From Minisyncoccota bacterium (GTDB taxonomy: Bacteria > Patescibacteriota > Minisyncoccia > Phycocordibacterales > UBA9973): a DNA stretch of 44,768 nucleotides. A program made the translations under genes and the position numbers. The stretch's first letter is position 1. Every line of letters begins with the position of its first letter. Below the pieces are notes generated by a model. That model saw only the letters and a program-made list of their open reading frames with translations. It made no database searches and was not told the origin of the DNA. The DNA lies in NCBI GenBank assembly GCA_018061035.1, contig JAGOUX010000006.1, positions 1-44,768 on the forward strand, given 5' to 3'. Shown piece by piece: positions 42,488-44,768 of the stretch.

Positions 42488-42559
42488 TCGGGAGTAGCTC
42501 AGCGGTAGAGCGATCGCCTGTTAAGCGATTGGTCGTAGGTTCGATCCCTACCTCCCGAG
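42488..42559 (+). tRNA. tRNA-Asn (anticodon GTT)
   Basis: Acceptor TCGGGAG pairs with CTCCCGA, D-arm GCTC/GAGC, anticodon stem ATCGC/GCGAT with loop CTGTTAA giving GTT, T-arm GTAGG/CCTAC with loop TTCGATC, discriminator G. No encoded CCA. A substrate of the Tgt enzyme encoded in this window, and the anchor of the cassette array that follows. Confidence 0.96.
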
Positions 42560-42620
42560 CATTGGAAATAACCTTATAAAATAAAGGTATTTTTTTCTAC
42601 CACAAATCAAGTTCGAACCT
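42557..42620 (+). repeat. 64-nt array spacer, copy S0 (includes tRNA-Asn terminator)
   Basis: Begins with GAGC (last bases of the tRNA gene) and ends GTTCGAACCT. It contains a terminator, ACCTT paired with AAGGT then seven T (42567-42596). About 44 of 64 positions agree with the spacer at 44040-44103. Confidence 0.75.
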
Positions 42621-42640
42621 AGTGAGTTTTTGTGTATAAT
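42612..42640 (+). promoter_or_regulatory. racemase promoter, leaderless
   Basis: TTCGAA (42612-42617), 17 bases, TATAAT (42635-42640); ATG 42647 follows 6 bases later. The -35 lies in the right edge of the S0 spacer. Confidence 0.6.
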
Positions 42641-42646
42641 ATAGAT

Positions 42647-43333
42647 ATGAAAACTATAGGAATAATTGGTGGGTTAGGACCAGAAACAACTTCCGAGTTT
42701 TATTTGGATATTGTTTTTTCTTGTCAAAAAAAGAACAAAACTGCTAGACCTGCAATTCTTATATCTAGTGTTCCTTTGCCTTACCAAATAGAGGAAGATT
42801 TAATTCTAAAAAATGAGGGTTCTGAGCGTTATATTCCTTTCCTGACACAAGAAGCAAAACGGCTAGAAAAAGCAGGTGCTGATTTTATAGTAATGCCTTG
42901 CAACTCCTTGCACGTCTTTATAGAAGACATAAGGAAAGCAGTTTCAATTCCTGTATTAAGTATTGTTGAAGAAACCGTTAAGTTTCTCAAATCTGAAAAT
43001 ATGCATAGGGTTGGCATAGTTTCAACATCTGCCACAATTAAAAATAAATTATACGAAAATGCTTTTGTTGAAAGTAATATAGGATACATTACCCCTAATG
43101 AATTACAGCAGGCAAAGATGGGTAAGTTTATTCTCAATCTCGTTACTGGTCAGCAGAAAAATCAAGACAGAGAAGAGCTTATCAATATAATAAATGATTT
43201 TGAAGATAAGGACTTAGATTGTGTTATTTTAGCTTGCACCGACTTACAACTACTTATACCTCATCATCCTACACTCAAAATCTTTGATACAATGAAAATA
43301 TTAGCTGATGCAACAGTTAAAGGCATTCTTTAA
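42647..43333 (+). CDS. aspartate/glutamate racemase-family protein
   Basis: 228 aa, full length for the family. IGIIGGLGPETTSEFYLDIV opens the fold; the two catalytic cysteines are in VMPCNSLHVFI and ILACTDLQLLIP. It likely interconverts L- and D-aspartate (or a related acid), relevant to cell-wall or D-amino-acid metabolism. A GTG at 42632 would add five residues but lies before the -10 hexamer, so ATG 42647 is chosen. First protein gene of the array; its flanks are unrelated to other metabolic genes. Confidence 0.85.
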   Translation: MKTIGIIGGLGPETTSEFYLDIVFSCQKKNKTARPAILISSVPLPYQIEEDLILKNEGSERYIPFLTQEAKRLEKAGADFIVMPCNSLHVFIEDIRKAVSIPVLSIVEETVKFLKSENMHRVGIVSTSATIKNKLYENAFVESNIGYITPNELQQAKMGKFILNLVTGQQKNQDREELINIINDFEDKDLDCVILACTDLQLLIPHHPTLKIFDTMKILADATVKGIL

Positions 43334-43381
43334 TAATAGCTATTCGAACATCATCCCAGGTTCGGAGCTCGTTAAAATCTT

Positions 43382-43411
43382 AGGCCACCTTCGGGTGGTC
43401 TTTGATTTTTT
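43382..43411 (+). terminator. terminator of the racemase unit
   Basis: AGGCCACC pairs with GGTGGTCT around TTCG, followed by TTGATTTTTT. An outer helix (GAGCTC, AAAATC with GATTTT, GAGCTC) encloses it. Confidence 0.8.
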
Positions 43412-43539
43412 GAGCTCGGGAGAGAAAGCCAACTGCTTGGCTTTCGTGTAGGGAGCGAAAAGCTTTTCGTTATGAATTGAAAATTCATCGAAAAGGTATA
43501 CTGCCCCTGTAAGGGGAGATCACCCTACCTCCCGAGCTC
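43412..43539 (+). ncRNA. tRNA-Asn-like structured RNA
   Basis: 128 nt closed by a perfect 11-bp helix (GAGCTCGGGAG with CTCCCGAGCTC) whose inner 7 bp are identical to the tRNA-Asn acceptor. Inside: hairpin GAAAGCC/GGCTTTC in place of a D-arm; GTAGGG (43448-43453) with CCCTAC (43523-43528), matching the tRNA T-stem; then CTTTTCG/CGAAAAG continued by ATGAATT/AATTCAT (43463-43495), and CCCCT/AGGGG (43504-43516). No anticodon arm and no reading frame. Looks like a tRNA-Asn relative rebuilt into another RNA. No promoter is obvious. Confidence 0.6.
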
Positions 43540-43617
43540 GTAAATAATCTTATTTTTCAAGGTTCAATTTTCCTACAAACTTAGGAAGCTCGAACCTATG
43601 ATATACTTGTGAGATAA

Positions 43618-44001
43618 ATGATTAAAATCGAAAAAACACAAATATGGAAAAATGATGAACGAGGCATAGCTTACGGATTTTCTGCACGAAAAAGTTCATA
43701 CTTTATAGTCCTTAGTAGAAAGAAAGGCACTACTAGTGGAGACCATTACCACAAAGGCACAATTAAATCCAAAAACCCAGAGGTATTTTATTTCGTAAGT
43801 GGTAAAGCCGAATTGACGACTTGCGATATAAAAACAGGAGAAGAGAAAGTATTTCAATTAGAAGAAGGGGTAAAAATTGAGATACCTCCATACATATACC
43901 ATTCTTTTAAGGCACTTACCAATATAATTTTATTAGAACTAAATACTAATAAAGAAGATTTTGATAAATACGAGTCAGATACAGTTAAAGATATTCCTTA
44001 G
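43618..44001 (+). CDS. cupin-domain protein
   Basis: 127 aa single cupin. Metal-site pattern GDHYHKGTIKSKNPEVFYFVSGKAEL in the first motif (two His, one Glu), second motif IPPYIYHSFKAL with the third His. It resembles dTDP-sugar isomerase-like and WxcM-type cupins, but the substrate cannot be told. TATACT at 43602-43607 stands 10 bases before the ATG. Second protein gene of the array, functionally unrelated to its neighbours. Confidence 0.8.
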   Translation: MIKIEKTQIWKNDERGIAYGFSARKSSYFIVLSRKKGTTSGDHYHKGTIKSKNPEVFYFVSGKAELTTCDIKTGEEKVFQLEEGVKIEIPPYIYHSFKALTNIILLELNTNKEDFDKYESDTVKDIP

Positions 44002-44016
44002 GAGTTAATTATCGCC

Positions 44017-44103
44017 ATACGAACATCATCCCAAGTTCGGAGCATCAAAATTGACCTTATAATACAAGGGTCTGTTTTTTGATTTAGGATAATGTTCGAA
44101 CCT
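44017..44103 (+). repeat. array element R2 to spacer S2 (attC-like, 87 bp)
   Basis: Left edge 44017-44043 (TACGAACATCATCCC then AAGTTCGGAGC); right edge ends TTTAGGATAATGTTCG at 44099, the reverse complement of the left edge at 13 of 16 positions. The 64-nt spacer (44040-44103) carries a terminator, GACCTT with AAGGGTC then TGTTTTTT (44052-44080). Shortest, cleanest copy. Confidence 0.75.
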
Positions 44104-44108
44104 TTTGA

Positions 44109-44114
44109 TATAAT
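44109..44114 (+). promoter_or_regulatory. -10 of the LysE-type gene
   Basis: TATAAT preceded by TGA, 6 bases before ATG 44121; leaderless. It follows directly on the right edge of R2-S2. Confidence 0.65.
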
Positions 44115-44120
44115 AATGAA

Positions 44121-44732
44121 ATGAAATTTTTTAGAAATGGTTTATTAACAGGGTTAGCTCTTCAGTTTGCGATTGGTCCCGTTTTCTTTTATATAATAAA
44201 TTTAACACTACAAAAAACAATTTTTCATGGTTTGATAGGTGCCTTGGCGGTTGCTATTATTGATTTTTCATATGTCGGACTTGCAATATTAGGTATTGGA
44301 AAAATTTTAGAAAATAAAAAAGTTAAAAAAATATTTGGTATTATTAGTTCTGTTATTTTAGTTATTTTTGGTTTTATAATAATAAAAGGTATAACAAATA
44401 TAGATATTTCAAACAAAACAATAGGTTCAATAAGTTTATTGTCGAGCTTTGTTTCAGTATTACTTTTAACCATTTCTAATCCAATAACCATAGTTCTTTA
44501 TACTGGCATATTAGGCACAAGAGGGATAGATAAAGATTATACTAAAAAAGGGCTATTCATTTTTGGTTTTGGGATTGGAATGGCAACATTGATATTTATG
44601 AGTGCCTCAGTAAGTTTATTTTCTGTAATTAAAGGAGGTGTTCCCTTAATTTTAATTCAAACAATGAATTTAGTAGTAGGGTGTCTCCTTATTGGATACG
44701 GGGGATTAAGATTTATAAAGGTTTTGAAATAA
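44121..44732 (+). CDS. LysE/RhtB-family amino-acid exporter
   Basis: 203 aa, six predicted helices. The start FFRNGLLTGLALQFAIGPVFFYI is the family N-terminus with the conserved Gly-Pro. Other helices are ALAVAIIDFSYVGLAILGIG, IISSVILVIFGFIIIKGI, LLTISNPITIVLYTGILGT with the Asn-Pro motif, GFGIGMATLIFMSASVSLF and MNLVVGCLLIGYGGLRF. It probably exports an amino acid or similar small metabolite. Very AT-rich. Third protein gene of the array. Confidence 0.85.
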   Translation: MKFFRNGLLTGLALQFAIGPVFFYIINLTLQKTIFHGLIGALAVAIIDFSYVGLAILGIGKILENKKVKKIFGIISSVILVIFGFIIIKGITNIDISNKTIGSISLLSSFVSVLLLTISNPITIVLYTGILGTRGIDKDYTKKGLFIFGFGIGMATLIFMSASVSLFSVIKGGVPLILIQTMNLVVGCLLIGYGGLRFIKVLK

Positions 44733-44737
44733 TACTA

Positions 44738-44764
44738 ATTCGAACATCGTCCCAAGTTCGGAGC
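44738..44764 (+). repeat. array element R3 (left edge only)
   Basis: 27 bases matching R1 and R2 (TTCGAACATCGTCCC then AAGTTCGGAGC), directly after the LysE-type stop. The window ends 4 bases later, so the array continues outside. Confidence 0.85.
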
Positions 44765-44768
44765 CTGT

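Follow-up and report, generated by a model that had tools for sequence, protein, structure and literature searches.

The window analyzed here, a stretch of 44,768 nucleotides that forms an entire contig of a Minisyncoccota bacterium (606-kb genome, 16 contigs, 94% complete), closes with a row of single-gene units that begins at a tRNA-Asn gene and in which every protein gene is followed by the same 26-bp element, here called E (TTCGAACATCNTCCCANGTTCGGAGC). This array was probably built from small passenger elements that large serine recombinases (LSRs) stacked one by one behind tRNA-Asn, at its 3′ end. In relatives of the window genome, the sequences place LSR elements between the 3′ end of tRNA-Asn on the left and E on the right. 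The C-terminal tail of the LSR depends on its neighbor, with a tRNA-encoded LRG-stop beside tRNA-Asn and LR-TWDDVRxxIIxx-stop beside E. Single-gene units have the same right end as the LSR elements, and one third of them also share the left-end motif.

Recurrence and Distribution of Element E

In the window, tRNA-Asn is followed on one strand by a racemase gene, a structured RNA, a cupin gene, and a LysE gene. The original prediction had described this order, a repeated element at the end of each protein gene, and three spacers, each exactly 64 nt long, that start with GAGC and end with GYTCGAACCT (42557-42620, 43534-43597, and 44040-44103), and all of these are present. It had also seen imperfect inverted repeats at the unit edges; this relation is real, as the left ends (...GTTCGAA) and E (TTCGAAC...) form an inverted-repeat pair in the window. 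The repeated elements are genuine and beyond chance, but they are not attC sites. The three copies of E, which are 82-87% identical over 39 nt, are the only ones in the window genome and reach position-matrix scores of 51-59, with no other site above 8; in G000, scans for E and LSRs covered all but the N-run ends of the small contigs C5 and C7 (L005 and L007). When array-bearing DNA of relatives was shuffled, the best score in 600 kb was 1.1.

With up to three mismatches allowed, E occurs in at least 19 of the 397 genomes of the window's order, representing 13 of 179 genera, and a reversed-pattern control gave no matches in the same 397 genomes. A scan of 84,980 GTDB species genomes yielded 36 stretches with E, nearly all labeled as Patescibacteria/Paceibacterota, Nomurabacteria, Parcubacteria, or unnamed metagenome-assembled genomes; one small contig among them was binned as Bacteroidia. 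Viral contigs contained no exact match, and a class-wide model search with stricter filters added only weak matches, four of which keep the LR.. tail reading (e.g., LRAWDEVR).

The largest array, in G413, holds 13 copies. The one-way, tRNA-anchored array of single genes with common boundaries that had been proposed from the window recurs with different genes in many relatives; further copies exist, and the content at the boundary varies. Wherever both are found on one stretch, tRNA-Asn lies upstream of E on the same strand, and no opposite-strand E was found in the array loci scanned. The exception, outside array loci, is a weak opposite-strand E upstream of tRNA-Asn in G405. Conservation among copies stops sharply past ..GGAGC, and a 3-base rhythm is apparent upstream of the core at positions -6, -9, -12, and -15. 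Three E-bearing contigs, including the window, end within 4 nt past E, compared to 0.015 expected (P about 6e-7). Such breaks fit the presence of alternative neighbors at E within a population, although assemblers also break on repeats.

Large Serine Recombinases and Exchange of Their Tails

The first gene past tRNA-Asn in many relatives encodes an antisense LSR, about 500-620 aa long, in which Resolvase, Recombinase, and zinc ribbon domains are found (PF00239, PF07508, and PF13408). In about 15 genomes the gene lies at the 3′ end of tRNA-Asn and terminates 12-14 bp inside the tRNA, such that its last residues (LRG, LGR, or LPG before the stop) are tRNA-encoded. There is one LSR per element at tRNA-Asn, and several of these elements are bounded by E about 5-21 kb downstream. 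Read in reverse, E specifies the alternative C-terminus, and LSRs located directly after E read on into it, ending in NWLR-TWDDVRMSLL-stop in L147, STMLR-TWDDVRTDILERK-stop in L132, and IWLR-TWDDVRKVIIEEK-stop in L078. Because reversed E encodes an LSR tail that is carried by the LSRs adjoining it, E is identified as the right attachment arm of the LSR elements. This natural tail comprises only about 12-14 residues past LR.

LSR bodies that are 63-70% identical can bear different tails, while the TWDDVR tail is common to bodies with no more than about 24-30% identity. In the LSR tree, both tail types are found in each of two deep clades. The simplest account places the attachment site within the LSR gene near its 3′ terminus, where the LR codons lie, so that recombination there swaps the tail. 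Junctions of E with an LSR within arrays resemble the predicted attP. Elsewhere, the LSRs of L210, L211, L213, L216, L219, L220, and L221 often end antisense at or near the 3′ end of tRNA-Ser, tRNA-Thr, tRNA-Glu, or tmRNA.

Among 106 elements, differences from the E consensus number 46, 56, and 184 at reverse-frame codon positions 1, 2, and 3, respectively. Since the database pattern had left three wobble positions open, biasing this first count, we repeated it with the 60 sites that do not match the seed pattern, themselves still found through similarity to E, and obtained 46, 56, and 126. Past the E core, the reverse reading continues with two hydrophobic residues and then a stop, mostly 14-17 codons from the crossover. 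The reverse-coding pattern is also kept in units with no LSR nearby, such as those of the window.

The tRNA-Asn Boundary and the Left Ends

The DNA 3′ of tRNA-Asn differs between species, and in about 30 same-genus loci the divergence starts exactly after ..CGGAGC (..CGAGC in the window). A left end of the form CTCGTAAAATATCC..hairpin..GTTCGAACC follows tRNA-Asn in L142 and follows E in other genomes. Finding the same left end behind either one shows that the end of tRNA-Asn and E are interchangeable left neighbors.

With one mismatch allowed, the motif GTTCGAAC is present in 23 of 69 cassettes and 11 of 16 LSR left ends, compared to 3.2% of random places. Its position is +51 to +53 in most motif-bearing cassettes and +59 to +62 or +71 in LSR left ends, offsets that are spaced by about one helical turn. 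All three 64-nt spacers of the window contain left ends of this type, with the motif at +51. Terminator-like hairpins are found at the left ends of 25 of the 69 cassettes and 8 of the 16 LSRs, against a null of 7.7%. Many cassettes have neither the motif nor the hairpin, and several of these carry a TTGACA-like box after E instead.

Passenger Units and the Window Locus

Most E-bounded units (62 of 80) are shorter than 1.8 kb, and the longest open reading frame is directed away from the tRNA in 49 of these 62. The contents of single-gene units are unrelated, with racemase, cupin, and LysE in the window and HIT protein, MsrA, and MsrB in G413. Three arrays from different genomes share one gene at 73-81% DNA identity, flanked by different neighbors. 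Single genes ending in E also occur at a non-tRNA site, where two genomes of the same genus each carry a different one (L070 9738-10603 and L069 9198-9747). The site is flanked by a shared left gene, which we take to be EF-G from its C-terminus as recognized by eye, and by a shared right gene that is 91.7% identical. The left border of the E-bounded gene there has no GGAGC, and no empty fusA site was found in other genomes of the genus of G092.

The racemase, cupin, and LysE units of the window look like passenger cassettes with the arms of LSR elements (Table 1). A racemase of the window type has a patchy distribution (6 of 297 genomes of the order). Its two close relatives stand singly and without E, right after tRNA-Ser in G187 and tRNA-Leu in G130 (loci L247 and L248).

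Table 1. Features of the tRNA-Asn array in the window
Feature	Positions	Strand	Description
tRNA-Asn(GTT)	42488..42560	+	ARAGORN, Rfam RF00005; 3′ end ..CCCGAGC anchors the array, putative attB
Cassette 1 left end	42561..42620	+	Terminator-like hairpin with T-run; motif GTTCGAAC at +51 (42611-42618)
Cassette 1 gene, Asp/Glu racemase family, 228 aa	42647..43333	+	PF01177, E 4.5e-38
Element E1, right attachment arm	43343..43368	+	Reverse strand reads LRTWDDVRIAIIKECL-stop; extended coding-like part 43328-43368
RNA unit left end	43369..43411	+	Terminator-like hairpin; also precedes the homologous RNA in other genomes
tRNA-like structured RNA	43412..43537	+	3′ 15 nt (43523-43537) are a copy of the tRNA-Asn 3′ end, in the place of E
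Cassette 2 left end	43538..43597	+	Motif GCTCGAAC at +51 (43588-43595)
Cassette 2 gene, cupin-like protein, 127 aa	43618..44001	+	PF14667, E 2.7e-8; PF07883 just sub-threshold
Element E2	44018..44043	+	Reverse strand reads LRTWDDVRMAIINS-stop
Cassette 3 left end	44044..44103	+	Motif GTTCGAAC at +51 (44094-44101)
Cassette 3 gene, LysE-type exporter, 203 aa	44121..44732	+	PF01810, E 8e-17
Element E3	44739..44764	+	Reverse strand reads LRTWDDVRISIISKPL-stop; contig ends 4 nt further on

The structured RNA of the second unit has no match among 4227 Rfam families (E up to 1). Homologues are present in other genomes, and the consensus fold, which consists of an acceptor-like stem, one hairpin, and a T-stem with a long inserted loop, shows double changes in 7 of 22 pairs. 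Where the RNA is located at tRNA-Asn, its stem matches the same genome's own tRNA-Asn. Further copies in G000 lie on the minus strand of contigs C4 (about 9382) and C6 (about 16423 and 16535). The two on C6 are in tandem behind tRNA-Leu, each with a terminal 18-nt copy of the tRNA-Leu 3′ end. In other same-genus loci (L200, L201, G353, G384, G399, G404, G419, and G420), inserts of about 270-600 bp interrupt tRNA-Asn itself after about position 34-37; those of L200 and L201 match group I introns (Rfam RF00028).

Proposed Mechanism and Alternative Explanations

If passenger elements are stacked by LSRs as we propose, single-gene units would circularize by joining E to the left end, and an LSR acting in trans would insert and remove them, with the crossover probably falling inside the common GAGC. 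The left-end hairpin of many units may restore a terminator for tRNA-Asn or for the preceding unit. Least certain is the idea that gain or loss of the tail could switch LSR activity or direction. A regulatory role of the tail is plausible, since fusion of a directionality factor to the C-terminus of a serine integrase alters its direction (PMC5737554).

Several points weigh against this mechanism. The chief gap is that the window assembly contains no tRNA-Asn-type LSR and that the contig ends within the array; the sole LSR of this genome is a member of another clade and is encoded at a different place. With GTTCGAAC absent from about two thirds of cassette left ends, the left arm is poorly defined. 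Neither a circular junction nor strain-level gain or loss was seen in the assembled sequence. Repeated insertion at the same site would seem to require recombination of attP with attL or with another attP, which known serine integrases do not normally carry out.

Finally, insertion and decay of full LSR elements could give similar rows. Such elements would have integrated repeatedly, leaving only the gene nearest the right end together with E, and the present units would be immobile leftovers. Full elements between tRNA-Asn and E do exist, LSR fragments adjoin E in L133 and L077, and multiple attR sites are known from staphylococcal and enterococcal cassette chromosome (SCC/ECC) elements (PMC6222049). 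However, the 13-element array of G413 is made of regular short units with no detectable LSR fragment, and many cassettes retain the precise left-end motif at +51. Decay also does not readily explain why the coding pattern of E persists where a unit has no LSR or why the same gene occurs in different arrays beside different neighbors. We regard accretion and decay as an unlikely origin of the arrays.

The kinship with integrons suggested by the original prediction, in which E and the spacer would fold into an attC-like site for a tyrosine recombinase, is largely refuted, and we consider it highly improbable. Single-gene units in one direction, an anchored start, and inverted repeats at the edges are all reminiscent of integrons, but the likeness to attC is in outline only. 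The element reads TTCGAAC...GTTCGGA(GC) and does not conform to the RYYYAAC/GTTRRRY cores. In a search for IntI-type integrases (NCBIfam TIGR02249, cut-off 265 bits), the matches were Xer-like enzymes and reached no more than 91.5 bits. There is essentially one of these per genome, also in members of the genus without arrays. Moreover, E reverse-codes an LSR tail, and LSRs are found at the same site.

There is a similarly slim chance that the host Xer moves the units, as in plasmid dif modules. Xer is the sole tyrosine recombinase of the window genome, and the sequence of E can be arranged as two arms around a 6-bp center. However, what tRNA-Asn and E share is limited to the terminal ..CGGAGC (in the window, GAGC) rather than a 28-bp site, and the LSR junctions provide a specific enzyme for the same boundary. 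An Xer/dif-like 11-6-11 site was ruled out because no site is common to E and tRNA-Asn. Two further candidates were rejected. An HUH transposase with a tetranucleotide target, suggested by the GAGC boundary, was dropped because LSRs are present at the same junction; no search for a Y1 transposase was made. For T-arm mimicry by E, an ungapped by-eye comparison with the tRNA-Asn 3′ end beyond CGGAGC gave approximately chance identity. That E is a transcription terminator, an RNA-processing signal, or another conserved 3′ untranslated element is the least credible explanation, as E does sit close behind stop codons and often before a terminator-like hairpin but, with 3 copies in 606 kb, is not scattered among the genes of the genome and occurs only in tRNA-Asn arrays and at a few other sites, and such a role leaves the codon-like variation on the opposite strand and the junction swapping with the tRNA end unexplained.

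Significance and Comparison with Known Systems

If stacking by LSRs is correct, a one-way cassette array at tRNA-Asn would explain single-gene gain in the tiny genomes of Patescibacteria, and E would offer a sequence tag for finding such genes in any metagenome. It would also mean that a serine recombinase can achieve integron-like logic. The exchange of tails at the LR codons is a natural and directly testable example of a serine integrase that has its C-terminus rewritten when it integrates, and E joined to a left end, together with tRNA-Asn, supplies candidate attP/attB pairs for genome engineering. More tentatively, and here we lean slightly toward doubt, the system may be a serine-recombinase counterpart of the integron that serves gene capture across this order of Paceibacterota. 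In such a system, a tRNA would be the entry site, cassettes would be exchanged in trans, and the boundary tag would double as an interchangeable C-terminal tail for unrelated LSRs, with position setting the tail and perhaps the direction. Our literature search, for which most subscription journals were outside coverage, returned no paper on such a system, none on LSRs in Parcubacteria or the candidate phyla radiation (CPR), and no report of an integron in Patescibacteria.

Like integrons (IntI, attI, and attC), the arrays have one anchored start, one-way single-gene cassettes with a common 3′ site, and genes exchanged between arrays, an analogy in logic only. Unlike integrons, they are associated with a serine rather than a tyrosine recombinase, lack attC cores, and are anchored at a tRNA gene. 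In addition, many units carry a terminator-like hairpin, and those in which a TTGACA-like box follows E appear to have their own promoter.

Serine integrases of phages and genomic islands in tRNA genes have the same Resolvase, Recombinase, and zinc-ribbon domains, which we found in relatives but not in the window's own array, and they likewise use a tRNA 3′ end as attB. Here the 3′ end of tRNA-Asn forms a fixed target with a sharp left boundary, and recombinase-bearing elements and passenger units have a common right end. The differences are that the LSR gene is antisense with its stop codon within the tRNA, that its tail is exchanged on integration, and that non-autonomous passengers are arranged in tandem.

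In the integration-dependent switches of mycobacteriophages, attP lies within the repressor gene, and integration alters the C-terminus of a regulatory or recombinase protein. In the present system, the altered protein is the serine recombinase itself, with an alternative tail derived from the neighboring cassette or the tRNA. Engineered fusions of serine integrases to recombination directionality factors likewise show that a C-terminal extension alters the direction of recombination (PMC5737554), although those fusions are artificial, whereas the short tail described here is natural.

SCC/ECC elements, which use the CcrAB LSRs, resemble the present system in their type of recombinase, in insertion at the 3′ end of a conserved gene, and in variable cargo, and they can contain several attR sites in a row (PMC6222049). 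Their target is the 3′ end of rlmH, whereas here it is tRNA-Asn; the units here are mostly single genes without a recombinase, the hosts are Patescibacteria, and the attachment arm overlaps the C-terminal codons of the recombinase itself. The system is best filed with LSR integrative elements, among which SCC/ECC are the nearest described, as one with integron-like logic that is set apart from SCC/ECC by its single-gene passengers, its tRNA-Asn target, and its tail overlap.

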